From an uncultured Verrucomicrobia subdivision 3 bacterium (GTDB taxonomy: Bacteria > Verrucomicrobiota > Verrucomicrobiia > Limisphaerales > UBA11358), in NCBI GenBank assembly GCA_903875465.1, contig CAIQWB010000069.1:1-52562 (forward strand): DNA of 52,562 nucleotides, in the 5' to 3' direction. The notes below the pieces were generated by a model. It saw only the letters and a program-made list of their open reading frames with translations, did no database searches and had not been told where the DNA came from. Shown piece after piece: positions 24,342-52,256 of this stretch; position 1 is the first letter of the stretch, and every line of letters starts with the position of its first letter. The position numbers and the translations under genes were made by a program.

Positions 24342-24348
24342 TTTTTAT

Positions 24349-25356: not shown

Positions 25357-25374
25357 ATTCCGCATTCCATTTTC

Positions 25375-26628: not shown

Positions 26629-26871
26629 GGAAATGAATTTTCTCTGGCGCTGGTTAACGACTCGGATATTCCGCAGGACGTACGCGTCACGGTTCCAGGC
26701 GGCCAAACAATTCCGGAATTACAGCGTTATGATTATTTTGCCAATGCCCGGAAGGTGGACGCCCTGGGTTTTCCGCGACCAGCAAAAATAATGCACGAGA
26801 TTGATTTACAAGCGGGATTGACCGCAAACCTGCCGGCGCGCAGCGTGGTGATTTTTACAACCGTAAAATAG
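26629..26871 (+). pseudogene. In-frame C-terminal continuation of the clan-A glycosidase after TAG
   Basis: Directly after the TAG, in the same frame, 80 codons read GNEFSLALVNDSDIPQDVRV ... ARKVDALGFPRPAKIMHEID ... LPARSVVIFTTVK and end at TAG 26869-26871. The content is that of a C-terminal beta-sandwich of an exported glycosidase, joining smoothly to the preceding AGLRTLAAR. A one-base change (for example CAG to TAG) explains it, as does a sequencing error. Stop-codon readthrough is less likely, because the final stop of the same frame is also TAG. Confidence 0.7.
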
Positions 26872-26931
26872 TGGCCAACCTCATTAAATTCAACGCTTTC
26901 TGGATTTAATCCCCTGCGGGCATCAATAAAA

Positions 26932-28533: not shown

Positions 28534-28554
28534 GGGGCGAGAACCAGCATTGAC

Positions 28555-30105: not shown

Positions 30106-30167
30106 ACTCAATCAACCGGGCTGGTTGCCGACCAGGCGACCCAACCGGTGCAACCAATCTTAATCTT

Positions 30168-32525: not shown

Positions 32526-33958
32526 AATCCCGGTGCAGCAGGAAGTTTTTCCCGGACATTTTCATTGACTGGTGGCTGGCTGGTGGTCGGCCCTTGGCCG
32601 GCATGCGTGAAGCGATACTGGTGGCCTGGTTGAGCCTGGTCATTACCACCGTTGCGCAAACTGGCCCGACCAATGCCGTCACCGCCCTGGCACCAGTGAG
32701 TGTGTCGACCAGCCGGGCCAGTGGAATTTACCGAGTGGGCGAGCCCATCCGGGTGCGGATTCAAGCGCGCCGACCAGCGGATGAAGCCGTGCGATCAATT
32801 GACTACACGGTTAAGTTGCACGGGGCGAAGTGGCTGGCGGGCGGTGAGCTCCCGCTGACGAATGGCCTGGCGGAATTCACCACACAGCTCACCGAACCGG
32901 GATCCTTGCTGTTTACCATCAACGGCACCAATGCCGCCGGCCAGAAGTTTTCGACCCTGGCCGGGGCGGTGGCCGACTATCGGGAAATTCGCTGGCCACA
33001 ACCGGCGCCGGATGATTTTGATGTATTCTGGGATGCCAAACTGGCCGAGTCGGCGCATTTGCCGCTGAATGCCCGGGAGGAGCCGGTACCCCTGCCGGCG
33101 GAACCTGCGATTGATTACAGCAAAGTCACGCTGGATAATATTCATGGTTCGCACGTTTACGGCCAGCTAGCGCATCCGCACACAGCGGGAAAATATCCCG
33201 CCATCTTACTGGTGCAGTATGCCGGGGTGTATCCGCTCAAGCGTGACAATGTCACCGCCCTGGCCCGAGAAGGCTGGTTAGTTTTGAATATCAGTGCGCA
33301 TGATTTTCCTTTTGATTTGCCGGATAATGAGATGCAAAAACTCGCGGATGGTGAGCTTAAGGAATACACGACGATCGGTCAGACGAACCGGGAGACCAGT
33401 TATTTTCTTAGAATGTTCATTGGCTGCCAGCGGGCGGTTGAATATCTCACCACGCGGGGGGATTGGAACGGCCGGGTGTTGGTGGTCAAGGGTACGAGCC
33501 AGGGCGGGTTGCAGTCGATTGTGGCGGCGGCGCTGGACCCCAGGGTGACTGCCATCATGGCTTTGGAACCGGCGGGTTGCGGCAACACGGCGCAAAGCAG
33601 TGGGCGGGCGTGGGGCTGGCCTTACTGGCAGGCGCATGCCCATGGACCCGAGGCGGCGGAGATCATGGAGACCAGCCGCTATTTTGATGCCATCCATTTC
33701 GCGCACCGGGTGAAATGCCCGGCGCTGATAGGTCCAGGTTTGATGGAAACCACCTGTCCGGCCTCGAATGTGCTGGCGATGGGCAATTTATTGTCTGGTC
33801 CGGTGGAGATGGTGATCCTGCCGCAAGCGGGACACCAGGCGCACAATGACAAGCGGGGTGAAACGCCGTTTAACAAGCGATCGGCAGCCTGGCTGAAAGC
33901 GCTGAAAGCGGGACAAATGTTTGGTGAATTTGCTCCTGTTAATATGCCAGCCAAGTAA
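32522..33958 (+). CDS. CE7-like acetyl esterase (AXE1 family), secreted
   Basis: The ATG at 32522 overlaps the GH92 stop, giving 478 residues; 32507 is a less likely start. A hydrophobic export segment (ILVAWLSLVITTVA) is followed by an N-terminal beta domain, then the alpha/beta hydrolase: DDFDVFWDAKLAE, NIHGSHVYGQLAHP, the nucleophile elbow KGTSQGGLQ (Ser326), and AGHQAHND (His438). The triad acid is normally Asp in this family, but here the position reads GLMETTCPAS (Glu409). The role is removal of acetyl groups from sugars so that glycosidases can act. It is co-transcribed with GH92 and the next esterase. Confidence 0.85.
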   Translation: MKSRCSRKFFPDIFIDWWLAGGRPLAGMREAILVAWLSLVITTVAQTGPTNAVTALAPVSVSTSRASGIYRVGEPIRVRIQARRPADEAVRSIDYTVKLHGAKWLAGGELPLTNGLAEFTTQLTEPGSLLFTINGTNAAGQKFSTLAGAVADYREIRWPQPAPDDFDVFWDAKLAESAHLPLNAREEPVPLPAEPAIDYSKVTLDNIHGSHVYGQLAHPHTAGKYPAILLVQYAGVYPLKRDNVTALAREGWLVLNISAHDFPFDLPDNEMQKLADGELKEYTTIGQTNRETSYFLRMFIGCQRAVEYLTTRGDWNGRVLVVKGTSQGGLQSIVAAALDPRVTAIMALEPAGCGNTAQSSGRAWGWPYWQAHAHGPEAAEIMETSRYFDAIHFAHRVKCPALIGPGLMETTCPASNVLAMGNLLSGPVEMVILPQAGHQAHNDKRGETPFNKRSAAWLKALKAGQMFGEFAPVNMPAK

Positions 33959-33987
33959 GTTCCAAATAATACAATCAGTAAGGTTCC

Positions 33988-35523
33988 ATGAAAAAAATCC
34001 AAATGTGTTTAGGGCAACTCAAGTACGGGTTGCTATTGCTCCTGGTAGGCGGTCCAGTTTTGGGGGAGGTGCGGCTGCCGGCGTTGTTTTCCGATCACAT
34101 GGTTTTACAAGGCGGCGAGCCGGTGCCGATTTGGGGTTGGGCGGTGCCGGGCGAGCAGGTGGCCGTGGAAATCGGGGGGCAAACCCTGACCGCCACTGCG
34201 GATGCCCAAGGCGACTGGCGCGTTGACTTGGCACCGTTGCAAACCGGAGCGAAACTCACGCTGACGGTCCAGGCGGCCAACCTCATCACGATCAGGGACG
34301 TGCTGGTGGGCGAGGTTTGGCTCGGATCGGGCCAGTCCAACATGGGGCTGCGCGTGAGCGGTGCCAATAATTTCGCGGGGGAGCAGGCCCGGGCCGAATT
34401 GCCGGAGCTGCGTATGTTCACCGTGGCTTCCAAAGCCAGTCCCACACCGCTGGGGGATTGCCGAGGCAAGTGGCAGGTGTGTGAGGCTCAATCGGTGGGC
34501 AACTTTTCCGCGGCACTTTACTTCTTTGGACGGGAACTGCAGGAACATTTGCATGTGCCGGTGGGGTTGATTCACGCCTCCTGGGGAGGCACGCCCATTC
34601 AGCCGTGGATGCCTCTGGATGTGGTTCAGGCTTATCCCGGATACGCGGCTTTGCTGGAGCGTAAAAAGCGGGAATTGGCGGTCTGGCCAGCGCGGGAAAA
34701 AGCGATTCAAGCTGACCTGAAGGCCTGGGAAATCCAGGCTGCTGCGGCGAAGGCGGCGCACACGCTGGAGCCGCCCAAGCCCTGGAATCCGGGTCCGCCA
34801 GATGCTGGCCAGTATATGCCGGCCCAGCTTTACAATGCGATGATTCATCCGTTGATTCCATATCGATTGCGCGGGGCAATTTGGTATCAGGGCGAAGCGA
34901 ACGCGGGTGGCGGGGCAGCGGGCGCGGCGGATTACACAGATTTGCAGAGCCGCCTGATTGCGGGCTGGCGGCGGGACTGGGGCAGGGGGGATTTTCCATT
35001 TTACTATGTGCAACTCCCGAATTGGAACAACGATGGCGACCGCAGCGGCAACAGTTGGGCCTATTTTCGCGAGGGGCAGGAGAATATCTTGCAGGTGCCC
35101 AACACCGGCATGGCGGTCACTCTGGACATCGGCGAGGCGGACAATATTCATCCTAAAAACAAGCAGGAAGCGGGGCGGCGGCTGGCGTTGCTCGCCCTGG
35201 CGGGAACGTATCATCAGCCGGTCGTTTGCGAGGGGCCGCAGTTTGACCACTGCACGACGAACGGGGCCGAGATCGCGATCTGGTTTACCCACGCAGATGG
35301 CGGGTTGGTGGCGCGGAACGGCGATTTGCGGGGCTTTGGGATTGCGGGCGCGGACAAACAGTGGTACCCGGCTGTGGCACGGATTGCCGGAACCGCCGTG
35401 CTGGTGTCAGCTTCGGGGGTGCCGGCACCGGCGGCGGTGCGTTATGGCTGGGCAAACAATCCAGTCGTTAATCTCTACAATGGTGCGGGGCTGCCAGCGC
35501 GACCTTTTCGCACGGACCGCTGA
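33988..35523 (+). CDS. Sialate O-acetylesterase-like (SASA domain) esterase, secreted
   Basis: The protein has 511 residues with a signal peptide (GLLLLLVGGPVLGEV-like stretch at 12-28). The SGNH-type serine is in WLGSGQSNMGLRVSG (Ser117), AIWYQGEANAG is the family's second block, and the Asp/His pair is in GEADNIHPKNKQ (Asp385, His388). An N-terminal beta-domain (LFSDHMVLQGGEPVPIWGWA) is typical. Such enzymes deacetylate sialic acids, but in polysaccharide loci they act on many O-acetylated sugars. It ends the operon that starts at the symporter. With the CE7 gene it implies a heavily acetylated substrate. Confidence 0.9.
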   Translation: MKKIQMCLGQLKYGLLLLLVGGPVLGEVRLPALFSDHMVLQGGEPVPIWGWAVPGEQVAVEIGGQTLTATADAQGDWRVDLAPLQTGAKLTLTVQAANLITIRDVLVGEVWLGSGQSNMGLRVSGANNFAGEQARAELPELRMFTVASKASPTPLGDCRGKWQVCEAQSVGNFSAALYFFGRELQEHLHVPVGLIHASWGGTPIQPWMPLDVVQAYPGYAALLERKKRELAVWPAREKAIQADLKAWEIQAAAAKAAHTLEPPKPWNPGPPDAGQYMPAQLYNAMIHPLIPYRLRGAIWYQGEANAGGGAAGAADYTDLQSRLIAGWRRDWGRGDFPFYYVQLPNWNNDGDRSGNSWAYFREGQENILQVPNTGMAVTLDIGEADNIHPKNKQEAGRRLALLALAGTYHQPVVCEGPQFDHCTTNGAEIAIWFTHADGGLVARNGDLRGFGIAGADKQWYPAVARIAGTAVLVSASGVPAPAAVRYGWANNPVVNLYNGAGLPARPFRTDR

Positions 35524-35697
35524 AGGCCAAATAGTTTGGGCAAAAGCATTCTGGGACGAGATTTCAGCAATTGGCCGGCCTGATTTGATCATGCATGCAA
35601 CTGGTGTTTACGCAGTTGTGGCAACGATGGTGTGCCCGGCGAAGTGATCATAGATTTTGGGTGGTGTAGTTTCTTGACGCCCGATCAGGCATCCTCC

Positions 35698-36804
35698 TCA
35701 GCGCTGTGCTGGGCGGTGAGTTCTTAACAGTATAGCCTCCGGGTAAGCGGCAGCCATGCCGGCGATTTGGTCCAGAATGCCGGCTGGGTTTTCATCCGTA
35801 AAGGACCAGTCCAGGGCACCGGCATAGCCGCGGTCATGCAGTACGATATGCAAATTCTGGCCACAATTGGTGCAACCCACAAAGGAGAATTCCGCCACGA
35901 CCAGCGGCTTGTCCAGTTTCCAGGTGGCAGCGTCGTGTTGAAAGGGCGAACGGTTGGAACCGCCGGCCCAGTCATAATAATGCACCATGTAAAAATCCAG
36001 CGTGCCTTGGACATCCCCGCCAGCGGCAATCAACCGGTCATCCCGGTAATAATTAAAATTGTCGGGATGGGCGCTGCCGGGCAGCGTTACGTCGGTGGTG
36101 GAAAACAGCGCCCAGGCACCGTTGGACACCCGCGCGGATGGATCCGCCCGGTGGATGGCCCCGGCACATTGATTTACGAATTTTTGTATGTAAGCAATGT
36201 TCACCCGGTAAGTGCTCCAGCCGAATTGCGGGGTCATGCCTTCGGGTTCGTTGAAAACTTCCCAAGCCACAATCGCCGGATGCCTCTTCAGGCCTTGGAC
36301 AATGGGTGCCAGGGCGTTGGTGAGGTAATAACTGCGGCAAGTGTCGTTCGTAAGAAGGGCATAGGAACGGGCTGTGAGCCCTGGAAACTCGGTGTTGAAC
36401 TTGCCCTGCAACATGTCAAACGACCAAAGACATAAAATCACCCCAACCTGGTTCGTCTCGGCGCAATCCACGATTTTCTGCAGATCGCGGACTGTATTTG
36501 CGCCCGGTCCAGTGACTTTGTTTCCGCTCCAAACGGGCGTGTTTCCACCATGAATATGCACCCAGAGTCTTAAACAATTACCGCCATTGGAATGGACCTG
36601 GCGGAAAATACGGTTGAAATACGCCATGTCGGTTCTGGCGTTGGGACCAACATCGTTGGCATAATTTCGCCAGGCAATATTGGCGCCGTTCAGGAATCGA
36701 TTCTGACCATTAAACGTGATCTGGTTGGTTTGCGAACCCGCGCTGATTACCCATAAGTTTAGGCTCAACAGGGCGTAGATCGCGTATTTAATCATTTCTA
36801 TCAT
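35698..36804 (-). CDS. GH5-like secreted beta-mannanase or related glycosidase
   Basis: The start at 36804 gives 368 residues with GGGGA upstream and a signal peptide (IYALLSLNLWVISAGS); 36795 is the next choice. The barrel has FLNGANIAWRNYANDVG, LRLWVHIHGGNTPVW, the acid/base in VAWEVFNEPEG (Glu186) and the nucleophile in PLVVAEFSFVG (Glu305). This layout resembles GH5 mannanases of the GH5_7 type. It is convergent with the esterase operon and divergent from the CBM-rich gene at 36999. No TTGCGCAA operator is visible upstream. Confidence 0.82.
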   Translation of the reverse strand: MIEMIKYAIYALLSLNLWVISAGSQTNQITFNGQNRFLNGANIAWRNYANDVGPNARTDMAYFNRIFRQVHSNGGNCLRLWVHIHGGNTPVWSGNKVTGPGANTVRDLQKIVDCAETNQVGVILCLWSFDMLQGKFNTEFPGLTARSYALLTNDTCRSYYLTNALAPIVQGLKRHPAIVAWEVFNEPEGMTPQFGWSTYRVNIAYIQKFVNQCAGAIHRADPSARVSNGAWALFSTTDVTLPGSAHPDNFNYYRDDRLIAAGGDVQGTLDFYMVHYYDWAGGSNRSPFQHDAATWKLDKPLVVAEFSFVGCTNCGQNLHIVLHDRGYAGALDWSFTDENPAGILDQIAGMAAAYPEAILLRTHRPAQR

Positions 36805-36998
36805 GGTTTTTATCCCCGCTGCCCACCGACGGCTTGCAACAATGGAGTTCTTAAAAACCTTATGTGTCCATGGACCAGTAGTCACATCATGATTTGTCGT
36901 CAGTTTTAGTGACGTGCTAATTGTTTGCGGAATGATAACATCACAGTCTATCTCTAGCACGCCGTCAATTCGGACCATTCAAACTTTCACGGAAAATT

Positions 36999-38888
36999 AT
37001 GATTGCCACGCTAACTAAATCCCCAGGCCAGTTCATCCACCGAGTTCTCCGCTGCGGGTTGCTGGTCTTGTTAGGGTTGGCGATAAGCCAAGGTTTGGGG
37101 CAAGGCAAAGAAATCTCCGTTGACGGCTTCGAATCGGGCTTGACTTGGGAAGCCGATAATCCGGCCGATGGGGCTGTCTTGACAGTCGTTCAGACCAACG
37201 TGACTGAAGGTGCTCATGCCCTTTTGGTTACCTTTCCCAATCGGGGCATTGCCAAGGCGGTGATTCACCATACGGCAAACCGGGATCTTACCGGCATGGG
37301 CAGTCTGGTGCTGGATGCGATCAACCCGCAAACCAATGCAGTGGGTGTGGCGATTGCCCTTCAAACCGGGCCGGAATGGCAATGGTTTGAGTCCCAGTTG
37401 GTCAGCCTCCAGCCGGGGATTAATAAGGATATTCATTTTGATCTGACGGGGAAAACGTTTAAGTCAGACCGGACCAAAGGGTTGGAAACCGGGTTGGAAT
37501 ATACCGATGCTTTGACAAACTTGGCCCAACTGCAAAGGATCAGCATTGTGATTTACATTGGCCGCTCGGCAAAGATTTCCGTCTATTTCGATAACGTACG
37601 TTGGGAACTTTCGGGCTCCGCTTTCACCACAACCACAGCTGCAATGAACAACGCTGCGGAAGGAGTGCAAAAATCGGCGTCCCTGGCGTTGAACGTGGTT
37701 CCGGTTGAGATGCTGGTCAACGGGAACTTCGCCGCCGGATGGACCAACTGGGTTCTGGAACAAACTGAGGGCGCAACCGGCCGGTTGGGATGCGTGCCTG
37801 CGGGGCCGGACGGCCTGGCGGCCCTGCGTTTGCAGGTCCTCTCGATCGCCCCCAAAGCTTATCATTTGCAGTTGTTCCAGACCGGACCGCACATCAAGAA
37901 AGGTCGGACCTACGAACTAACTTTCTGGGCCAAGTCAGACCGTGACAGCAGCATCAAGGTGAATTGCATGATGAACCATGAACCATGGGAGCATCACACG
38001 CAGGAGTTGTTGCCGCTTGCCACCGAGTGGAAGCAACTCCACTTCAGGTTTGCCACCCCGTGGAGTGACAACAATATTCGCATCTCATTCACCGACCTCG
38101 GGGCCACGGTGGGGCAAACATACTGGCTGGCCAAGTGCTCGCTCGTTCCGGTCTCCGAAAATCCAGCGTCCGGTGTGACCGCACCTGCAACCACCGGGCC
38201 GGCCGGCTTCGGCACGCCGTTCATTTGGACCGGAGATTGCTCCAGCGAAGCCGCCTTCGTGTACTCCCATCATCCAACGATTCCGGGACATTATGAATAC
38301 CTGCCCGACCCGCGAGCACCGGAACGGGGAGTCGTATTCGTCGGGCATCTTACCCCGGATTTCAAGACCGCCGACCCTGAAAAGTTCCACATGCATCCGG
38401 AGATTTATTTTGACCATTTCACACCCGGCAACATCACCGTCAGTTTCGATGTGAAGGTGGATGACCTTTCGCCGGCCGGACTGGGGCCGTATGGCACCGA
38501 CCCCTGGCTGAATGTGATAACGTTGTTTGATGAAACCATCGTGGCGGGCGGAAGGTTCTTTCATCCCTCGGTGATGGTAAATCTGGTGGGGGAACCACAA
38601 AATTACCGATTGCAGGCTTACTCAATGGACGCCCAGGGAGCCGGCACATTTTATGACAAAATCGCCGAGGGGCCGGTGTTTCCAACCGGGAAGTGGGTGA
38701 CGGTGCGCGTGGAAGTGAATGTGAAAACGAGCCAGGTTTATGTTTATCAGAATAGCGTGCTCGCCTCCGCTGGTCCTTACATGGGAAAGCCGGGTTTGGC
38801 CGGAGCCCATATGGGCCTCTACGCCAACCACAAGATGACACGAGCAACCGTGTTTAATAGCAAAATCCGCATTCAGGTGGTCAACTGA
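36999..38888 (+). CDS. Large secreted carbohydrate-binding multidomain protein
   Basis: The protein has 629 residues with a signal peptide (CGLLVLLGLAISQGLGQG). Residues about 35-205 resemble a CBM11/CIA30-like jelly roll (VDGFESGLTWEADN ... ISVYFDNVRWEL). Residues about 235-385 resemble a CBM4/9/22-like domain (NGNFAAGWTNWVLEQTEG ... RTYELTFWAKSD). Residues about 405-629 look like a concanavalin-type sandwich (GNITVSFDVKVDDLSPAGLG ... YKIAEG-like loops ... LASAGPYMGKPGLAGAHMGL). No catalytic residue set is evident. It may be a glycan-binding scaffold or a lyase of a family I do not recognise. It is divergent from GH5, suggesting joint use on the same glycan. Confidence 0.6.
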   Translation: MIATLTKSPGQFIHRVLRCGLLVLLGLAISQGLGQGKEISVDGFESGLTWEADNPADGAVLTVVQTNVTEGAHALLVTFPNRGIAKAVIHHTANRDLTGMGSLVLDAINPQTNAVGVAIALQTGPEWQWFESQLVSLQPGINKDIHFDLTGKTFKSDRTKGLETGLEYTDALTNLAQLQRISIVIYIGRSAKISVYFDNVRWELSGSAFTTTTAAMNNAAEGVQKSASLALNVVPVEMLVNGNFAAGWTNWVLEQTEGATGRLGCVPAGPDGLAALRLQVLSIAPKAYHLQLFQTGPHIKKGRTYELTFWAKSDRDSSIKVNCMMNHEPWEHHTQELLPLATEWKQLHFRFATPWSDNNIRISFTDLGATVGQTYWLAKCSLVPVSENPASGVTAPATTGPAGFGTPFIWTGDCSSEAAFVYSHHPTIPGHYEYLPDPRAPERGVVFVGHLTPDFKTADPEKFHMHPEIYFDHFTPGNITVSFDVKVDDLSPAGLGPYGTDPWLNVITLFDETIVAGGRFFHPSVMVNLVGEPQNYRLQAYSMDAQGAGTFYDKIAEGPVFPTGKWVTVRVEVNVKTSQVYVYQNSVLASAGPYMGKPGLAGAHMGLYANHKMTRATVFNSKIRIQVVN

Positions 38889-41807: not shown

Positions 41808-44800
41808 ATGAAAACCAAACCCAACGATAAAAGAGTAATGCCTATGCAAACCACACCTCGAACCCGCTCCCGCCGGCTGGTGGCTTGGATCACCTGCCTC
41901 TGCTTGCTACTGGGCACACTACCGGCGCTCCAGGCCCAAACCACCAATACTTGGGTTGGCTCCAACACCGTCTGGGGAACTTCCAGCGCCTGGTCACCGG
42001 CTAATATTCCCAACGCGGTGGATTCCGCAGTCACATTCAACAACACCACCAACACGATCAACAATCCCAGTTCCGGTGTGAAGTACACGGTGGGCACGCT
42101 GAATCTGACCGGGGGATCCACCATAGGCCTGGCGGGTGCCAACCTGGGGTTAAACTTCCAGACCTCCGCCGGCACGCCGGTGATTAATGTGTACAATAAC
42201 GGGGGCGTGTATTGGTATTGGACCCAGTCTGGCACGCAGGGCTTCACCAAACTGGGCGGGGGATCGTTGACGGGCCGTTTCAGCAACACACCCAACCCAT
42301 TCACCGGGCCGATAAATGTAGTCCAGGGTACAATTGGGCTTAATTGGGGGTATAATCTGGGTAATGCCAGCAGTCTGATGCTTTCCAACGGGACGACTCT
42401 CATCCTGCAGAATAGTGCCAACGCCTCGACCGCCGGCATCAATGCCGTGCTGCAACCATTTCCGGTTAATCTCACCGGGGGCGGCACGGTGACCCTGGCG
42501 TCCAGCTATGTTGGGCAAAGCTTGATCATTCCTGGCAACTTGCAGAGCAGTTCGGGCACGGCGGTGAAATGGAATGGGCCGGGCCTGGGCATCCTGGCCG
42601 GCAGTAACACCCTGGCCGGTCTCACGGTTAGCGGTGGCAACCTGGTCATCAGTACGGCCACTACCAATTATGGTTCCATAACAGTGGCCGCCAATGCCAC
42701 CAATGGGGTGCTCGCCACGGCGTCTAACAGTTCATTGACCGTTTCCAATTTGACGCTGGTCGGCACCAACAACTCGGTGTTGGAATTTAGCGGTGGCTGG
42801 TCGGGTACACCCACCGTGCCGATGCTGGTGGTGACCAACCAACTTTCCTTTGTAACTAATGTTCCCGCCCCCATCTTGCTGACGGGCGGTGGCTGGCAAC
42901 CTGGGAGCACCATTCCCTTATTGCAATTTGGGAATCTGGTGAGCACCAATGCCGCCGGAGTTTTTGGCTCCTTTGTGCTGGGACCGCTGCCCAAGGGTAT
43001 CGCGGCCACTTTGGTGGATGGCACGGCCAGCAACCAAATCAATTTGAACATTTCGGCGATCGCCCCCCTGATATGGAGCCCGACCACGGCGAATGCCAAC
43101 TGGACGGCGGCCGGCAATTGGACATTAAGCGGTGGGGCCACCGGACAGGCTTATACCGAAACGGTGCAATTTGGCCCGGCGGTGCTCTTTGATGATTCCC
43201 TCGCCCCGGCTGGCCCAAGTATTCAAGTCACCAACAACACATATCTTTCGCCGAATAGTGTGGTGTTTAATAACTCGACCCACAACTACACCTTGCTGGG
43301 CAGCGGGGGCATCGAGAACAATGCCAGTGTTACCTTGAATGGCAGTGGTTACGTGACCAACAGTCAGGCCAACACCTATTTCGGCAACACGGTTCTCAAC
43401 GCGGGTACGCTGGTGCTTAACAATATTCTCGCCTTGGGTGCGATCGGCACCAACGGTGGGGCCAATGCGGCTTTCGGCACCATTTATTTCAATGGCGGCA
43501 CCCTGCAGTTCACCGCCAACAACACCAATGATTATTCCAGCCGGTTCAGCACGGCCGCCAATCAGGCTTACTCACTGAACACTGGGGGCAAAAGTGTTGC
43601 GCTGGCCACGCCGCTGACCAGCAGTGGCGGCAGCTTGACCGTGGCCGGTAATGGCCTGCTGACCTTGAAGGCCGCTAATACCTATACTGGCAATACCACG
43701 AACAGTGGCACCCTCAGGTTGGGCATCGCCAATGCCCTGCCGGTTACCACCGCTCTGTCGCTCGGCGGCAATGATGGAACGTCCGGCACGCTTGATCTGG
43801 CCGGCTTCAGCCAGCAAATAAGTGGTTTAACCTTCAATCCCAACGCCAGCGCCGCCACCATCACCAATAGCAGCAAGCTCTCGCCTGCCATCCTGGTTTA
43901 CAATGGCGGCACGAGCACTTTCGCTGGGAGTATCGCGGATGGCACGGCGAATGGTGCCAATGGCGGCCAGGCCGTTTCCCTCACCGTTGCCGGCGGGGCT
44001 TTAACTTTAGCTGGGCAGAATACTTACACAAACATCACCACCATTACCAATGGGGCTAAACTCTATGTGACGGGTTCCCTTACCTCGACGAACATCACGG
44101 TGGCCGCTGGTTCCCTCCTGGATGTTTCTGCCATTACGTATGCGGTCAGCCCGGGCGCAAGCTTGAACGGCATTGGCAAGGTCAACGGCAATGTGGAGAT
44201 TGCCGGACTCGCAGCCATCCAACCGGATGCCCTGGGCGCGACGTTGAACCACGGCACGCTAACATTTAGCAATAATTTGACGCTGGACCAGGCGGCGACG
44301 TGCAACCTAAATGTCGCCCCCACCGCCGCGAGCGCCAACAATGACCGGCTCTTGGTGCTGGGGCAGTTAAACGCGAACGATCCGAATGGCAACACGCTTA
44401 ACATTCAAGGTCCGGCCGCCCCGGCCACTCTGGATACCGGCACCGATTACCTGCTGATTTCCTCCCCCAACAATACCATTTCCGGCACCTTTAATGCGGT
44501 GCCGAACTGGGTGGGCACCAAACCAGCCAATTATGCCCATTACACCGTCGTAACCTCGGCAAACTCGGTCATACTGCATTACTCCCAGGGGGTATTGCTA
44601 TCGGGCGCGGGCTCCGTGGCCCCGGCAGTGGGCCCCCACCAGAATTATGCGTTCACGGTCTTGGTGACTCCCGGCACCGGCAGTACTGGCATCGGTGTGA
44701 CGGCTGATTTCTCGGCGCTGGGCGGTTCGGTGCAAACTTTCGCGCATTCTGGCAACGTTTATAGTTACACTTATGCTGTACCGGGATCCGTGGCACCGGG

Positions 44801-47369
44801 GAATTATGCCGTGCCCTTCACGGTAACGGATGCCCAGGCCGACAGCTTTAACGGTTATTTCTATCTGACCATCGTTAATAGCACGTTGATTTGGAATGGC
44901 GGGGCCGACAACAATAACTGGAGCGGGTTAAACTGGCTCAATGGGGCCACCCCCGACACTTCGGGTGATGCCGGCGATGCCTTGGTGTTTACCGGGAACA
45001 CCCGGCTGACCCCGGTGATGGATAATTCATATAATGTTGCCGCGGTCACCTTCAGCAACAGCGCCGGCGCATTTAACATTACCTCGCCGGGCAACAGCCT
45101 GACACTAGCCGCGAATGGCGTGGTGGAAAATGATTCGCCGACCACGGAGTCGCTGGATGTGCCGATTAGCCTGACCTCCGGTTCGCAGTTCAATACTCCC
45201 GCCGGCACCCTCATCGTCGGTGCCCTGGGTGGCAGTAGCGACGGCTTTGCCAAGAATGGGAGCGGCAAATTAACCATCGATGGGGCGGCCGGCGCCTGCG
45301 GCTATTCCGGAACCACCACGCTGGCTGGTGGCACCCTGGCCATTACCAATGCGGATGAGGTCCTGCCCGCTGGCACTACCGTGGCCTTCACCGCTCCGGC
45401 CACGCTTGATTTGGGGGGCCATAGTCAGACGGTTGGCAATTTGAACAACTCCGGCTTGTCCGGTGGCAGTATCATTTTGACCAACGGCAATCTGACCGTT
45501 GCCGGTCCCGGGGTGAATTTAACACCCAACACGACGGCGCCACTGGCCACGACCATTGATTTGAGTGGTTTGAACAGCCTCACGCAAAACGCCGGAAGCA
45601 TGACCTTCTACGGCTCCCTGGCCGCCAATTCGACGGTCAAACTGGCGCAAACGAACTATCTCACGCTCAACGCGCTTTATCTCGCCAATGGCGGCCTGAC
45701 CGCCGCGGCTCCCAGCGACACGGCCACGCTGCTGCTTGGCCAGTCCAATGTCCTCAATATCTCCACCATCCAGTTGGGCGGTTACCATAATGCATCGGGG
45801 ACGATCGCTTTCAATGGGGGCTGGAACAATCCAACGCTGGTTTTGCGTGGCCTGACTGGATCCGGTTCGGCGGTTGGGAATTTTAATATTGGGGTTAATA
45901 ATAACGGCAGCAACCCCGCATTCTCGTTTGACACCCGGGCGGGTACGATTGATGCGGTGGTTAATAACCTTTATATTCTCAATAATAACTCCGGCGGCGG
46001 CACCTGGGTGGATACGCTGAGCCTTTCGAATGGGATATTTACGGCGGGCACCATTTATATGGGCTACGACAATGGCTCAACCGCCGCCACGGGTGGCTCG
46101 GCTGTGGTCAACCAGAATGGCGGCACCATGCTGGCGGGCAATCTGAAACTTAATGCGAATATATCGACGGGAATTCCGTCCCTGATTTCCACCTACAATC
46201 TTGGCTTGGGAGTGAACGGCAGTGGCCTGTTAAGCGCCGCTGCCATCAGCATTGGGGCCACTCAGCCCATCACGAACAGCACCGCCACGCTCAACTTTAT
46301 CAATGGAACCATTGAAAATTATGATCCTGCTTTGGGCCAGGCGGACAGCCTGGGGGTGGTGAATGGCGGCTCTACCAGCCCGGAAAACCTGGATATTGCC
46401 GGCCAGTCCGGTGCTGAGGTGGCCAATAATTCCACCACGCTGCACATTGTGCTGGCGGCCACGGGCACGCATAATTTTTATGCCGAGAGCGGGTACACCA
46501 TCACCGAAGAACCCTCCGTGCAGATCAGTGGCAGTGGCGGGTTGACCGCCAGCGGTCCCGGACTCGTCATCCTCGCGGGCACGAACAATTATACCGGCAA
46601 CACCACGGCGGGTGCGGGCACCTTGGAAATCGTTCAACCGGATTTATTCTGGCGGTCCAGTGTCACGGTGTCCAATGGCGCGGTATTGCAACTGGATTTT
46701 ACGGCCACCAATCAAATCGCAGCGCTCGTCATCAATGGTGTCAGCCAGGCACCCGGGCTTTATAACCGGAGCACCCACCCTGGTTTGCTGGCCGGGCCGG
46801 GCAGTTTGGTCGTGGTGCCGGTTCACACTAATGCCTGGCTGACCTCCCTGGCGCTCACCCCCGAGGACAATCTCACACCGGCGTTTGCCACCAACGTGTT
46901 CGCTTATAATGCGACCAATGGTTCGGGGGTCAAACCAACCGTGACGGTGGTAAACGCGGATGTGACGGCCACCAACCAGTTGATCCTCAACGGGCGCAAC
47001 CTGCAGTTACTGGCCTCGGGCGTGCCCAGCCTGGTAATCACCAATCTGGGGCCGGGCGCGACGAACGTCCTGAAAGTGCTGGTTACCGCGCAGGATGGGG
47101 TTACCACCAATCTCTATGTGGTAAACCTCACGCAAATCACGGTGAATGCCAACCCCTTCACCCTGACCAGCAGCCTGGGCGGTGGCAACCTGAACCTAAG
47201 CTGGCCGGCGGACCGTTTGGGCTGGCGTTTGCAGGTGCAGACCAATACGGTGACCACGGGTCTCAACAGTGTTTGGTATGACTGGCCGAATTCGACGAAT
47301 CTCACCACTGTGAGCATTCCGTTGAACCCGGGCAATCCCACGGTGTTCTTCCGGATGGTCTATCCGTAA
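41808..47369 (+). CDS. Giant secreted beta-repeat protein (autotransporter-associated repeats)
   Basis: The protein has 1853 residues. A signal peptide ends near PALQAQ (about 45). Residues about 46-1675 are Asn/Thr/Gly-rich beta-solenoid sequence with autotransporter-associated beta-strand repeats (ANTYTGNTTNSGTLRLG, NNYTGNTTAGAGTLEI) and two WSP/WNGG-type restarts (IWSPTTANANWTAAGNWT, WNGGADNNNWSGLNW). Residues about 1675-1780 look like a cadherin-like beta-sandwich (WLTSLALTPEDNLTPAFATN). The last 70 residues are a terminal module ending FFRMVYP. No outer-membrane autotransporter barrel is present. The N-terminal 300 or so residues resemble those of the protein at 48939. It is probably a surface adhesin or glycan-capture fibre. 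Confidence 0.82.
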   Translation: MKTKPNDKRVMPMQTTPRTRSRRLVAWITCLCLLLGTLPALQAQTTNTWVGSNTVWGTSSAWSPANIPNAVDSAVTFNNTTNTINNPSSGVKYTVGTLNLTGGSTIGLAGANLGLNFQTSAGTPVINVYNNGGVYWYWTQSGTQGFTKLGGGSLTGRFSNTPNPFTGPINVVQGTIGLNWGYNLGNASSLMLSNGTTLILQNSANASTAGINAVLQPFPVNLTGGGTVTLASSYVGQSLIIPGNLQSSSGTAVKWNGPGLGILAGSNTLAGLTVSGGNLVISTATTNYGSITVAANATNGVLATASNSSLTVSNLTLVGTNNSVLEFSGGWSGTPTVPMLVVTNQLSFVTNVPAPILLTGGGWQPGSTIPLLQFGNLVSTNAAGVFGSFVLGPLPKGIAATLVDGTASNQINLNISAIAPLIWSPTTANANWTAAGNWTLSGGATGQAYTETVQFGPAVLFDDSLAPAGPSIQVTNNTYLSPNSVVFNNSTHNYTLLGSGGIENNASVTLNGSGYVTNSQANTYFGNTVLNAGTLVLNNILALGAIGTNGGANAAFGTIYFNGGTLQFTANNTNDYSSRFSTAANQAYSLNTGGKSVALATPLTSSGGSLTVAGNGLLTLKAANTYTGNTTNSGTLRLGIANALPVTTALSLGGNDGTSGTLDLAGFSQQISGLTFNPNASAATITNSSKLSPAILVYNGGTSTFAGSIADGTANGANGGQAVSLTVAGGALTLAGQNTYTNITTITNGAKLYVTGSLTSTNITVAAGSLLDVSAITYAVSPGASLNGIGKVNGNVEIAGLAAIQPDALGATLNHGTLTFSNNLTLDQAATCNLNVAPTAASANNDRLLVLGQLNANDPNGNTLNIQGPAAPATLDTGTDYLLISSPNNTISGTFNAVPNWVGTKPANYAHYTVVTSANSVILHYSQGVLLSGAGSVAPAVGPHQNYAFTVLVTPGTGSTGIGVTADFSALGGSVQTFAHSGNVYSYTYAVPGSVAPGNYAVPFTVTDAQADSFNGYFYLTIVNSTLIWNGGADNNNWSGLNWLNGATPDTSGDAGDALVFTGNTRLTPVMDNSYNVAAVTFSNSAGAFNITSPGNSLTLAANGVVENDSPTTESLDVPISLTSGSQFNTPAGTLIVGALGGSSDGFAKNGSGKLTIDGAAGACGYSGTTTLAGGTLAITNADEVLPAGTTVAFTAPATLDLGGHSQTVGNLNNSGLSGGSIILTNGNLTVAGPGVNLTPNTTAPLATTIDLSGLNSLTQNAGSMTFYGSLAANSTVKLAQTNYLTLNALYLANGGLTAAAPSDTATLLLGQSNVLNISTIQLGGYHNASGTIAFNGGWNNPTLVLRGLTGSGSAVGNFNIGVNNNGSNPAFSFDTRAGTIDAVVNNLYILNNNSGGGTWVDTLSLSNGIFTAGTIYMGYDNGSTAATGGSAVVNQNGGTMLAGNLKLNANISTGIPSLISTYNLGLGVNGSGLLSAAAISIGATQPITNSTATLNFINGTIENYDPALGQADSLGVVNGGSTSPENLDIAGQSGAEVANNSTTLHIVLAATGTHNFYAESGYTITEEPSVQISGSGGLTASGPGLVILAGTNNYTGNTTAGAGTLEIVQPDLFWRSSVTVSNGAVLQLDFTATNQIAALVINGVSQAPGLYNRSTHPGLLAGPGSLVVVPVHTNAWLTSLALTPEDNLTPAFATNVFAYNATNGSGVKPTVTVVNADVTATNQLILNGRNLQLLASGVPSLVITNLGPGATNVLKVLVTAQDGVTTNLYVVNLTQITVNANPFTLTSSLGGGNLNLSWPADRLGWRLQVQTNTVTTGLNSVWYDWPNSTNLTTVSIPLNPGNPTVFFRMVYP

Positions 47370-48014: not shown

Positions 48015-48839
48015 ATGCCCAAATTAATTTCTGCCCCTGAATACCGCCAACCAGGACTGGGTTGGCCGCCAGCGCCAACCCGTCGGGATTCCCGGCGGCG
48101 GTTGGTGACGAGTGGTCGCCGGGCGTTTACGCTGATCGAATTGCTGGTGGTGATCGCCATCATCGCCATTCTGGCGGCCATGCTGCTCCCGGCGCTGGCC
48201 AAGGCGAAGGACCATGCCAAATCCATTCAATGTGTGAGCAATACCAAGCAACTGGGTTTGGCGGCCATGCTGTACGCGGGCGATAATCAGGATTATTTAC
48301 CGTCCATCAATTCCCAGCCTTATCAAGGGGGCATGATTAACTACACCAACTGGTGGTTTATCATGATCAAGGGCTATATTGCCGGTTTGAACACGACCAA
48401 CAATGCCACGGTCTGGCGCTGTCCGGTGGTGACGGATGCGGACATTAATGCCGGGGACACAGCCTATTTTGGTGTGACCTGGCAGGGGTATGGGCCCTGC
48501 CAGGGGCGGTATTTTAATTATCCCACGGTGCCCAATGGTTCGGGCAGCAAGAAACTGGGCAGTTTGCGGCGCTCCTCCCAGCTCTGGTTGTTTGGGGATG
48601 TGGGCACGCCCAAGGTAACCTGGCCGGATACCCAGCCCAAATGTGGGTATTGGACGGATGTTACCTTCGGGGCCAGCCTGACGGGCTGGAATGGCGACAA
48701 TCCCCAGAAGCAGCCGGCCATCCGGCATGACAGCAATACGCGGGCGGTGTTTGTCTGTTGCGACGGGCATGTGGAGAAATGGAATTGGCCGGCATTGCGG
48801 GGCGATCAAGCGGACTTCATGGGGGTGAATGCTTACTAA
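48015..48839 (+). CDS. Pseudopilin-like protein (DUF1559-like), second module
   Basis: The protein has 274 residues. A long Arg/Pro-rich leader precedes the prepilin motif [20 protein letters not shown], with Ala instead of Gly before the cleaved Phe, then [20 protein letters not shown]. The C-terminus has [19 protein letters not shown], a variant of the H-X9-DG signature with 11 residues between His and Asp-Gly and an unusual Cys-Cys. It belongs to the same family as the gene at 40265. It follows operator site 4 and precedes the second giant secreted protein by 99 bases, most of which is a palindromic repeat. Confidence 0.85.
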
Positions 48840-48938: not shown

Positions 48939-51900
48939 GTGAAACGCTTCCTGATCCTGCTGGGCTTATGGCTGGGGGCAGACCTGGGGTTGCCGGCCCA
49001 AAGCACCTGGACCGGGCCGGCGGGCGGGCAATGGGGGGTGGCCACCAACTGGTCGCCCAATGGCATTCCCAATGCGGTGAACGCCGTCATTAACTGGACC
49101 AATAGTGCGCAAGCTTATCTGACGGTGGGAGGTCCCTTTACACTGGGCACGCTGAATTTTTTGACCGGTGGCGGCAGCCTGGCTTTTGGGGCCAACACGA
49201 GCAATGACCAGCTCACGGCCCAAACGAGCTCCGGCGCCCCCACCTGCTACGTGACCAACGGGGGGAATGTTTATTGTTACGTCCGGCTGGCTGGCACGCA
49301 AGGCTTCGTGAAGACCGGGCCGGGCACGCTGACGTTTCGCTATAATGGCATGACGCAGCCGTACACGGGCACGGTCGCCATCCTGGGGGGAGCGCTGGGT
49401 ATTCAGGCGGATTACAGCCTGGGCAATACGAACAACCCGGTCATCATCACGAACGGAGCGAGCTTGAATGAAGCCAGCAGTGCCAATGGCGGGGTATTCT
49501 GGCTGTCGCCGGTGCGCACCCTGACGCTGGCGGGTGCGCAGGCGCAGGTCGCGGTGGGGGGCGCCGCTTATACCTTGGTGATTCCGGGCGTCATTAATGA
49601 GAATTCCCCAGGCGCGGGTTTGCTCTGGAGCAGTGCGGGGGAACTCATTCTTTCCAATGCGAACACGTTTACCGGGGCTTTGACCATGACGGCCGGAACG
49701 GTGGACCTGGCCCAGGGCCAGGCCGCCCAGTTCGCCACACTGACGGTAAATGGAGGCACCCTCCAGTTTGACCAGGCGGTGCCGGGCAATGCTTTCACGC
49801 TGGGCGGTTTGGCCGGAACGGCGGGGTTTGCCCTGCAAAATAATGCCGTCCCACCGGCGCCCATCGCCCTCACGGTGGGGGGCAACCAAGCCAGCACCAC
49901 GCTGGCGGGCGGGCTGACCGGGCCGGGCTCGCTGACGAAAACCGGTGCCGGCACGCTGACGCTGGGCGGCGCGAACCAATATACCGGCACCACGACGGTG
50001 CTGGCCGGCAGGCTCAGCACCGCCACCGGCAGCACGGGGGCGGGGGCAGTGACGGTGGCGGATGGCGCGACGAACCAGGTGCAGGTCAGCACGCCGGGGC
50101 AGACCCTGATTACGGCCAGCCTCACGCTGGGGGCGCGCAGCGGGGCGACGTTGGAATTCAATCATTTGGTGCTGGCCAATCCGGTGGCCCCGATGATGCT
50201 GGCCACGAACCTGGTCTTGAACGGAACCAACACGGTCAATATTTACGGCCCGGCCTTTGCTTATGCCGCCGGAACCATTTCCTTGCTTGCCTATGCGAGC
50301 AAGAGCGGGAGCGGCAGTTGGGCCCTGGGGGTCCTGCCGACGGGCATGGCGGCCACTTTGCAGGATACCGGCTCGCAACTCCAACTGGTGATCACGGCGG
50401 CGGGCAATCCGACCGTAACGGAACAGGTCAGCTTCGCCACGACGAACGCGGGCAGGGTGATCAACCCCGCGTTTTGCGGGCTGAGTTATGAGAAGACCCA
50501 GTTGACCGGCAGTCTGTTTACCAGTGGCAACACGGCGCTGCTCCGGGTGTTTGGCCAACTGCCGGCTGGTGTGCTGCGGGTGGGGGGCAATTCGGTGGAC
50601 ATGGCGTGTTGCTGGGGCGGGGTGGCGAATTTGACCGCCATCACTCCGGCGCAAGTGAGCACTTTTGCGGGGTTCGTGAATGCCCTGCCGCCCGGCTGGC
50701 AGGTCATCTATGGCATCAACATGGCGGTGAATTCGCCGACCAATTGCGCGGCCGAGGCGGCTTATGCGGCGGCGGTGCTGGGCCCCCGGTTGCTGGGTTT
50801 TGAGATTGGCAATGAACCGGACCTTTATCACGACAATACGAATTATTTCCCGGCCAGTTATAATTATGGGAATTTTCTGCCGGCGTGGCGGACGCTCGCG
50901 GCCGGCCTTACCAAGGCGGTACCAGGCTGGGCGGTGACGAATGCCGGTCAGGGCTGGACACTGACCGGGCCGGCTGCTTCGTATAATACGGCGGGTTATA
51001 CCGTGCCGTTCGCCAGCAACGAGGCGGGGGTGGTCTCGCTGGTCACGCAACATTATTACCGCAACAGTGCGGCGGCCAGCAACGCCACCATGGCAGTGTT
51101 ATTGACGCCGGATCCGAACCTGCCGGTCACGGTAAGCAACCTGGTGGTGGCGGCGGCGGCCAATCACCTGCCCCTCGGTTTTCGGATGGACGAATCGGGT
51201 TCGTTTGCCGGCGGCGGGAACGGGGTCAGCAGTCAGTTTGGCGCCGCCCTGTGGACGTTGGACGTGATGTTCACTGAGGCCGTGGGGGGCTGCCAGGGGG
51301 TCAATTTTCACGGCGGCTGGGCGGGAACGTACAGTCCCATTTGGACCTCGGGTGCCACGGTGGTGGGGCTGGGTCCCGAATTTTATGGGCTAAAACTGTT
51401 CTCGCTCGCCGCCCACGGCAGTGCGCTGCCCGCGAGCCTGGCGCCGGTGCCCACGGTGAATTTCACGGCCTATGGCGTGCGCGAGACGAATGGGGCGATG
51501 AGCGCGGTGTTGCTGAACAAAGAAACGAACACCGGGGTGCAAGTTACGATTGATTTAGGGACAAATGTGGCCGCCGCGCAAGCCATGGTGCTCACCGGCT
51601 CCTCCCTGCAGAGCACGAGTGGATATACGCTGGGCGGCGCGCCCATCGCCCTGGACGGTTCGTGGGCGGGCAGCTTCCAGCCACCCCTGCCCGCGACCAA
51701 TGGGCAGGTGAGCCTTACCGTCCTGCCCATGAGTGCGGTGTGGTTGCAGCCACTGCTGCCGCCCAAACTCGCAGCTGTGGCCAATCGGTCCCTCATCGCC
51801 GGGGCGACGTTGACGGTGACCAATCAGGCGACCGATGTCAATGCACCGGCGCTGCCGCTGGCCTACAGTTTGCCGGTGGCACCGGCCGGTGCCACTATTA

Positions 51901-52256
51901 ACCCCACGAACGGCCTCGTCACGTGGCGTCCGCTGGCCGGCCAAAGCGGTTCCAGTAATCAGTTCACCATCGTGGTCGCCAATACGGCCAGTTTGTGGGC
52001 CACGCAAAGCTTCTGGGTGGGGCTGCTGGCACCGCAAAAGCCAACCTTAGCCGTGGCGGCAACGGCGGGCGGCCCGTTGCATTTCACCATCCGCGGCGAT
52101 GCGGGCCCGGATTACATTATTCAGGGCACGACGAATTTGGCTGCGGCGGCGTGGCTGTCGCTGTTCACAACCAATGCGCCGGCGGTGCCGTTTCAATGGA
52201 CGGCGACGAATGTCCTGAATCCACAGTATTTTTACCGGGTCCGGCTGGGACCTTAA
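48939..52256 (+). CDS. Secreted fusion of beta-repeat region and GH79-like glycosidase
   Basis: The protein has 1105 residues and a GTG start, with signal peptide FLILLGLWLGADLGLPAQ. Residues about 22-480 are autotransporter-associated beta repeats (NQYTGTTTVLAGRLSTATG), resembling the start of the 1853-residue protein (WSPNGIPNAV; GTQGF followed by a Gly/Leu-rich strand). Residues about 490-860 form a barrel like GH79 glucuronidases/heparanases: INPAFCGLSYEKTQLTG, VLRVGGNSVDMACCW, LLGFEIGNEPDLYH (acid/base Glu626), GFRMDESGSFAGGG (nucleophile Glu752), GGCQGVNFHGGW. A beta domain and a He_PIG Ig-like domain (about 940-1030) follow, then a terminal module ending FYRVRLGP. It likely cleaves uronic-acid-containing glycan at the cell surface. 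Confidence 0.85.
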   Translation: MKRFLILLGLWLGADLGLPAQSTWTGPAGGQWGVATNWSPNGIPNAVNAVINWTNSAQAYLTVGGPFTLGTLNFLTGGGSLAFGANTSNDQLTAQTSSGAPTCYVTNGGNVYCYVRLAGTQGFVKTGPGTLTFRYNGMTQPYTGTVAILGGALGIQADYSLGNTNNPVIITNGASLNEASSANGGVFWLSPVRTLTLAGAQAQVAVGGAAYTLVIPGVINENSPGAGLLWSSAGELILSNANTFTGALTMTAGTVDLAQGQAAQFATLTVNGGTLQFDQAVPGNAFTLGGLAGTAGFALQNNAVPPAPIALTVGGNQASTTLAGGLTGPGSLTKTGAGTLTLGGANQYTGTTTVLAGRLSTATGSTGAGAVTVADGATNQVQVSTPGQTLITASLTLGARSGATLEFNHLVLANPVAPMMLATNLVLNGTNTVNIYGPAFAYAAGTISLLAYASKSGSGSWALGVLPTGMAATLQDTGSQLQLVITAAGNPTVTEQVSFATTNAGRVINPAFCGLSYEKTQLTGSLFTSGNTALLRVFGQLPAGVLRVGGNSVDMACCWGGVANLTAITPAQVSTFAGFVNALPPGWQVIYGINMAVNSPTNCAAEAAYAAAVLGPRLLGFEIGNEPDLYHDNTNYFPASYNYGNFLPAWRTLAAGLTKAVPGWAVTNAGQGWTLTGPAASYNTAGYTVPFASNEAGVVSLVTQHYYRNSAAASNATMAVLLTPDPNLPVTVSNLVVAAAANHLPLGFRMDESGSFAGGGNGVSSQFGAALWTLDVMFTEAVGGCQGVNFHGGWAGTYSPIWTSGATVVGLGPEFYGLKLFSLAAHGSALPASLAPVPTVNFTAYGVRETNGAMSAVLLNKETNTGVQVTIDLGTNVAAAQAMVLTGSSLQSTSGYTLGGAPIALDGSWAGSFQPPLPATNGQVSLTVLPMSAVWLQPLLPPKLAAVANRSLIAGATLTVTNQATDVNAPALPLAYSLPVAPAGATINPTNGLVTWRPLAGQSGSSNQFTIVVANTASLWATQSFWVGLLAPQKPTLAVAATAGGPLHFTIRGDAGPDYIIQGTTNLAAAAWLSLFTTNAPAVPFQWTATNVLNPQYFYRVRLGP

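Follow-up and report, generated by a model that had tools for sequence, protein, structure and literature searches.

A GH79 glycosidase behind a PATR beta-helix in a Verrucomicrobiota genome, and a C-terminal module as candidate sorting domain

Introduction

Near the end of a contig from an uncultured Verrucomicrobia subdivision 3 bacterium (CAIQWB010000069.1, assembly GCA_903875465.1), a single gene joins repeats of the autotransporter-associated type (PATR) to a glycosidase of family GH79, and raises the question of what such an enzyme cuts, where it would do so, and how it would be carried there. The window analyzed is the whole stretch of 52,562 nucleotides. An original prediction, made from the letters of this DNA, had described a beta-repeat half, a catalytic barrel with two candidate glutamates, an Ig-like domain and a terminal module. 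Comparison with relatives, structural models and genome searches now point to a Sec-exported, retaining GH79 enzyme, probably endo-acting, that a modular frame displays outside the cell and that is paired in sister genomes with a lyase of family PL8; a probability of roughly 0.55 was assigned to this reading.

The GH79 catalytic domain

Assignment of the barrel to GH79 was upheld by phmmer searches against PDB chains, in which residues 490-940 match the heparanase of Burkholderia pseudomallei (BpHep or BpHPSE; 7pr9/5bwi) with E 2.5e-75 and the enzyme of Acidobacterium capsulatum (AcGH79 or AcaGH79; 3vny/5g0m) with E ~4e-60 (4.3e-60 for 3vny), in each case along nearly the entire chain. Pfam profiles show only PF16862, the GH79 C-terminal domain, which at 20.4 bits stays below its cut-off of 27; the score reaches 27.2 when the domain is scored genome-wide with the neighbors included. 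Glu626 (GNEPDLY) and Glu752 (RMDESGS) sit exactly where they had been predicted, align with the acid/base and the nucleophile of GH79 enzymes, and are kept in all 14 GH79 sequences that were aligned (11 close barrels, the window's included, and three remote ones). With the residue roles described in PMC9500389 and PMC10785800, the -1 subsite counterparts are E518, N551, N625, E626, E752, G758, G759, H791 and Y798; among these E518, N551, G759 and Y798 are the equivalents of Glu45/62, Asn97, Gly350 and Tyr391, and H791 is that of His327 of AcGH79. Substitutions among the 11 close barrels affect N551 in five (Ala, Asp or Gly), G758 in six, E518 in one (Asp) and H791 in one (Gln). The family and the catalytic residues are established by these alignments, and the window protein is a genuine GH79 enzyme, predicted to be a retaining beta-glucuronidase.

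What separates exo from endo action in GH79 has been put down to one loop, 40 residues long in AcaGH79 and 24 in BpHPSE (PMC9500389), and Asp105 of AcGH79 is described as holding the 4-hydroxyl of the sugar (PMC10785800). By sequence alignment the counterpart loop has 22 residues in the window protein, its length across the 11 close barrels being 21-22 throughout, and Asp105 falls inside the 40-residue loop of AcGH79. Endo cleavage is therefore favored, and the enzyme is probably endo-acting.

Architecture and recurrence in the order

Repeats and barrel had been read as one frame, and they are present as a single open reading frame of 1105 codons (48939-52256), with the order of repeats, barrel, Ig-like domain and terminal module borne out by domain and ortholog matches. 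Pfam did not detect the Ig-like domain in the window protein itself at E<=1; in the ortholog at locus L014 (genome G012), however, He_PIG is matched over 939-1027 with E 3.7e-9, and the final 166 residues of the two proteins align with 60% identity. This ortholog has the same neighboring genes and is 71% identical in the barrel and 70% over the whole protein. Between the two genomes, residues 1-489 give a nonsynonymous rate (dN) of 0.19 and a synonymous rate (dS) of 1.12 (dN/dS ~0.17), and residues 490-940 give 0.20 and 1.31 (dN/dS ~0.15). Both halves of the frame are under purifying selection, and the repeat half is constrained as strongly as the barrel.

Close GH79 barrels (E<=1e-60) number at least 11, in at least nine of 320 genomes of the order including the bacterium's own; these counts are lower bounds, with at most five candidates scored per genome, and all 11 barrels belong to its own genus. 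PATR was found in the same frame as eight of the 11, the window's included, with a profile built here, and was confirmed by Pfam or NCBIfam in the window protein and at L014, L044, L045, L047 and L129; L043 and L130 were matched by the profile built here only, and at L046 a Pfam PATR match below threshold follows the barrel. The architecture, which the original prediction did not know as a described type, is thus recurrent and not a singleton, and its estimate of about 460 repeat residues becomes about 470. A search of one open-access library found no paper that links GH79 with autotransporters in Verrucomicrobia and none that uses the PATR repeat name for this group, a result that makes no claim of absence from print; for GH79 together with PL8 it listed a paper on a yak metagenome.

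Four genomes (the bacterium's own, G012, G242 and G008) have the same N-terminal half, and their barrels form one clade with support 100/99. This half is 69-76% identical between the window protein and its three orthologs over 323-335 residues, and 89% between G242 and G008. Other close relatives have different N-terminal halves, or none. Mapped on the GH79 tree, PATR presence takes three changes, of which two are forced, and shows hardly any clustering (80 among 500 shuffles were as low). In genome G003 (L043:3-15905) a GH79 barrel is embedded between PATR repeats in a protein of at least 5300 residues, and in the sister genome G020, where GH79 matches at E<=1e-3 number 18, LamG domains precede or follow the barrel in some frames.

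The beta-helix half

The repeats match PF12951 (Pfam, E 1.2e-11, three stretches) and TIGR02601 (NCBIfam, E 1.7e-14). AlphaFold2 models were built from four-row alignments. The full-length model is weak (mean pLDDT 40.9) and was employed for helix comparison only, in which UpaB (6bea) was the best structural match by VIA-align (Z 14.9, root-mean-square deviation 6.0, 332 aligned residues, 10% identity); the N-terminal model (mean pLDDT 65.0, pTM 0.67) matched EspP (Z 14.0), UpaB (Z 13.2) and pertactin (Z 12.6). Ranked among these passengers are phage tailspikes, with Z values of up to 12.2, and a beta-helix of metagenomic origin (7jvi, Z 13.1 and 14.0), and the fold is therefore called a beta-helix and not a relative of autotransporters. 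With low to moderate model confidence, the resemblance to autotransporter passengers supports the beta-solenoid that had been proposed for this half. Its hydrophobic periodicity is no greater than that of shuffled sequences, and relatives were not found among viral contigs. For UpaB, an interaction with glycosaminoglycans is possible in a groove of the helix (PMC6488583), which is a promising lead. The helix half of the window protein may be a spacer and possibly an arm in contact with glycan; the original prediction had it as a possible stalk or substrate-binding solenoid that keeps the enzyme at the surface. An N-terminal SPNGIPN, likened to the NPNG motif of two-partner secretion domains, was set aside because an NW..G-type motif recurs, by eye, inside other PATR proteins.

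A PL8 lyase on the same frame

The chassis common to the four GH79 frames is found a second time in three of the four genomes, where a PATR-PL8 gene adjoins the GH79 gene: directly behind it with no gap in G012, and before it with 36 bases between them in G242 and G008. At L014 the neighbor is arranged as PATR, then PL8, then Ig-type domains, then the same tail as in the GH79 protein, with matches to Lyase_8 (E 1.2e-16) and Lyase_8_C (E 1.8e-6). Its PL8 part resembles chondroitinase AC (E 1.7e-7) and matches NF043001 with E 2.9e-15, far below the cut-off of that model. The G008 PL8 protein is split between two contigs, with only its last 447 residues on that of the GH79 gene, and the start of the G242 protein falls outside the fetched stretch. 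Among 36 genomes searched, a set to which G242 does not belong, the PL8 catalytic part was found only in G012 and G008.

The N-terminal halves of the GH79 proteins and of the G012 PL8 protein are 45-50% alike over ~310 residues. Over the C-terminal 168 residues GH79 and PL8 proteins are 54-61% alike, and the GH79 orthologs among themselves 58-63%. The simplest reading of these sequences is one frame, duplicated, that carries two enzymes. Concerted evolution of the two frames was sought without success: C-terminal identity within a genome (55% in G012 and 58% in G242, with G008 not measurable) does not exceed that between genomes. The bacterium's own genome has five GH88 matches in five frames, which could take unsaturated uronides; they lie at G000:C33:9233-11443 and on three other contigs, two of the frames side by side.

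The C-terminal FYR module

The last 75 residues of the window protein form a module that ends in FYR-L/V/M-x-x-P and occurs twice in the window (52029-52253 and 47142-47366). A profile (A7) was built on the 75 C-terminal residues of 30 proteins of the bacterium's own genome, and with it the module was found in at least 95 places of that genome at E<=1e-3, from 150 scored among 259 candidates. The end of the module lies within eight residues of a stop codon in 86 of 90 measured places (30 of 30 and 56 of 60; 61 of 65 without the 25 model rows), the five unmeasured places being rows of A7. The four exceptions are L170 (a stretch without a stop), L206 (where the stop falls within the match), L204 (12 residues) and L207 (57 residues). 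Pfam and NCBIfam assigned no family to the 30 members scanned (one chance-level match each, best E 0.08), and a profile search of PDB gave weak matches to a glucanase/chitosanase domain (E 5e-4) and an Fn3-like protein (E 0.036). Among 115 genomes of the phylum (the listed ones of other orders), six others had one to five matches at E<=1e-8; for comparison, 46 of 50 scored places in the bacterium's own genome match at that level.

The module's C-terminal position across proteins that otherwise differ, including frames in which the PATR profile detected nothing, is the behavior expected of a sorting domain, and the module is a candidate sorting or anchoring domain on this sequence evidence. No partner machinery was found for it: a search for SprA_N found nothing in the bacterium's own genome and was equally silent in control genomes.

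Relation to autotransporters

The bacterium's own PATR proteins were collected as 34 complete frames in the fetched stretches with a six-seed PATR profile, which misses at least two (on contigs C150 and C18). The pattern [FY][FY]R[LVMI] is present within the final nine residues of 26 of these, six have close variants and two are without; elsewhere it occurs three more times in 55,199 residues. The window protein, which ends in the FYR module, has no C-terminal translocator beta-barrel at E<=1 in Pfam, and the autotransporter barrel family is absent at E<=1e-5 from the 27 PATR proteins scanned, the window's included (four very long and three seemingly broken frames were omitted). Catalytic matches in the 27 were one GH43 and one Glyco_hydro_cc, with GH79 itself falling below the E<=1e-5 threshold. 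The type Va plan is thus represented by a passenger-like beta-helical PATR part; the C-terminal barrel is missing, and the order is reversed with the helix before the enzyme, whereas in type 2 autotransporters the enzyme is N-terminal and precedes the helix (PMC9289746). The protein is no classical autotransporter, and the name "autotransporter-associated" used in the original prediction is misleading, given the absent barrel and the C-terminal signature shared by 32 of the 34 frames. This signature is part of the C-terminal module, which is the likelier determinant of localization. Signals of other known routes were also sought. PEP-CTERM features (VP-type motif, transmembrane helix, basic tail) were found by a rough regular expression in none of the 34 proteins, the window protein has no such NCBIfam match, and neither it nor the module members match the C-terminal domain of the type IX secretion system in NCBIfam.

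Neighboring genes

Coordinates of the gene, its parts and the related loci are collected in Table 1. The prepilin-like neighbor is 91% identical to its counterpart at L014 over 249 residues, where the preceding PATR protein is 74-81% and the GH79 barrel 71% identical. Positions 22758-38888 hold a sodium:solute symporter, two tandem GH29 alpha-L-fucosidases, an AXE1 esterase, a SASA esterase and a CBM4/9 protein, and are possibly a locus for fucose-rich glycan; the window also encodes a GH28 enzyme.

Table 1. Features of the GH79 gene, its neighbors in the window, and PATR-PL8 loci of sister genomes
Feature	Position	Strand	Basis or remark
Whole gene	48939..52256	+	1105 residues, GTG start; PATR beta-helix, GH79, Ig-like, terminal module
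Signal peptide, residues 1-21 (MKRFLILLGLWLGADLGLPAQ)	48939..49001	+	Cleavage site judged by eye from sequence
Beta-helix half, residues 22-489	49002..50405	+	PATR profiles, models, fold comparison (UpaB, EspP, pertactin)
PATR stretches within beta-helix half	49305-49397, 49635-49706, 49932-50018	+	Profile matches
GH79 catalytic (beta/alpha)8 barrel and C-terminal beta domain, residues 490-940	50406..51758	+	PDB matches, PF16862
Short loop G549-P570, 22 residues	50583..50648	+	Counterpart of AcaGH79 exo loop and BpHPSE endo loop
Glu626, acid/base, GNEP motif	50814..50816	+	Alignment to GH79 enzymes
Glu752, nucleophile, DESG	51192..51194	+	Alignment to GH79 enzymes
He_PIG/Ig-like domain, residues 940-1023	51756..52007	+	He_PIG match in L014 ortholog
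C-terminal FYR module, residues 1031-1105	52029..52253	+	Profile built here; no Pfam or NCBIfam family
Prepilin-like protein, N-methylation motif	48015..48839	+	PF07963 E 7.4e-8; neighbor conserved at L014
1853-residue PATR protein	41808..47369	+	N-terminal region homologous to that of the GH79 gene (~32%); same kind of terminal module
PATR-PL8 lyase loci	L014:7846-12858; L129:14752-19500; L047:3-1346 with L085		

Interpretation and alternatives

In the proposed mechanism the enzyme would leave the cell by Sec export, with the right-handed beta-helix at its N-terminus serving as a spacer and possibly as an arm that touches glycan. An Ig-like spacer would follow the enzyme, and the terminal module would sort or anchor the whole. 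In the sister genomes, hydrolysis by GH79 and beta-elimination by PL8 would together dismantle a polymer of glucuronic acid (GlcA) and hexosamine. This suggests a modular toolkit directed against acidic polysaccharides outside the cell. A bolder version, well short of an even chance, is that the protein is cargo of an undescribed sorting route of Verrucomicrobiota with the FYR module as its signal, a functional equivalent of the type IX C-terminal domain or of PEP-CTERM. Swappable enzymes (GH79, PL8) would then ride at the surface on autotransporter-like but barrel-less helices, along which a uronic-acid polymer would be bound while it is cut.

Several points weigh against the proposed mechanism or narrow it. 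N551 is Ala in G242 and G008, although both have the same chassis. The N-terminal model has no Foldseek match at E<=0.001, so that the helix assignment is drawn from PATR, the strand pattern and VIA-align, with both models (mean pLDDT 40.9 and 65.0) of low to moderate confidence. No PL8 was found in the bacterium's own assembly with the L014 catalytic part or with Pfam, where the Pfam controls were silent too, and its contig ends 306 bases past the GH79 stop. The phylum does contain true autotransporters: in Akkermansia muciniphila nine barrel-bearing outer-membrane proteins are described (PMC4960237). As to substrate, the whole barrel is net acidic (K+R 12, D+E 19), and D+E exceeds K+R in all 11 close barrels (one truncated), whereas the cleft of human heparanase is basic (PMC9351465); heparan sulfate therefore seems an unlikely substrate, and the charge of the barrel counts against strongly sulfated substrates in general. 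PL8 and GH88 enzymes also serve xanthan (PMC10881899), and xanthan-type polymers are possible. The pairing of PL8 with GH79 in these genomes points to a GlcA-hexosamine polymer of the hyaluronan or chondroitin type, low in sulfate, as most likely.

An unlikely but serious alternative keeps the frame and changes the cut, making the protein an exo-beta-glucuronidase that trims terminal GlcA or 4-O-methyl-GlcA from side chains of plant or algal glycans such as arabinogalactan or xylan, or from flavonoid glucuronides, with the short loop merely a different pocket wall. Most characterized bacterial or fungal GH79 enzymes are exo-acting, and the fucosidases, the two esterases and GH28 of the window fit such glycans. 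Exo enzymes of the family are described in PMC9500389. A loop shorter in every close barrel than that of the endo enzyme speaks for endo cutting instead, as do the better E-value for BpHep than for AcGH79 and the PL8 partner in three genomes.

The frame itself could also be explained otherwise. The least probable account makes it a type V product, in which the helix is a passenger, or a domain like those of two-partner secretion (TPS), that passes through an outer-membrane barrel encoded elsewhere and the terminal module is irrelevant to export. PATR aids passenger secretion in autotransporters (PMC9977779), and the full model matches TPS domains (EtpA Z 11.3, HMW1 Z 11.0, HxuA Z 8.8, FHA Z 7.4); the lack of the barrel domain in all 27 PATR proteins scanned, with no search aimed at a dedicated TpsB, and a module that keeps its C-terminal place even on frames with no PATR-profile match, argue the other way. 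Slightly less improbable, though still doubtful, is a loose collection of domains, with the PATR half and the module as generic spacers spread by recombination and without a specific role. The scattered occurrence of PATR on the tree, the relatives with other N-terminal halves or none, and the barrel set within the giant repeat protein of G003 would fit such spreading, whereas two findings would not: in four genomes the PATR half and the barrel are equally conserved, and the barrels of these genomes form a single clade. The displayed, probably endo-acting enzyme is preferred to these accounts. Its interest lies in a well-understood enzyme family joined to a type V-like frame that is inverted and lacks a secretion barrel, and in the second, complementary enzyme that the same frame carries in adjacent genes of three sister genomes. 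Bolder than anything about the enzyme is the question of the terminal module: were it a sorting signal, some 100 proteins of the bacterium's own genome would gain a predicted destination, and the display of very large repeat proteins would become testable through one small domain.

Comparison with known systems

Among known enzymes BpHep is closest, with the same catalytic domain over nearly its whole length, the catalytic pair, Gly at position 349 and a similarly short loop (24 residues against 22). As crystallized it is a chain of 438-446 residues without beta-helix, Ig-like domain or terminal module, all of which the window protein has. AcaGH79 shares the family and most -1 subsite residues but is exo-acting, with a 40-residue pocket loop and Gln at position 349, where the window protein has 22 residues and Gly.

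Type Va enzymes (subtilase, SPATE, the sialidase NanB) likewise join an enzyme to a beta-helix, and the subtilase Ssp is known to have PATR in its helix (PMC9977779). Theirs is an N-terminal enzyme with a C-terminal barrel; the window protein has the helix first, the enzyme behind it and no barrel. A predicted GH33 sialidase autotransporter of an Akkermansia lineage (PMC10540074) is a glycosidase of the same phylum, but is described as a genuine passenger and is of GH33, not GH79. UpaB of uropathogenic E. coli is the best fold match of the helix half, and the possible interaction with glycosaminoglycans is described for UpaB. UpaB is not known to have a catalytic domain. The PATR-PL8 proteins of the sister genomes have the same N-terminal half and the same C-terminal 168 residues as the GH79 proteins, and differ in carrying PL8 in place of GH79 as their cargo.

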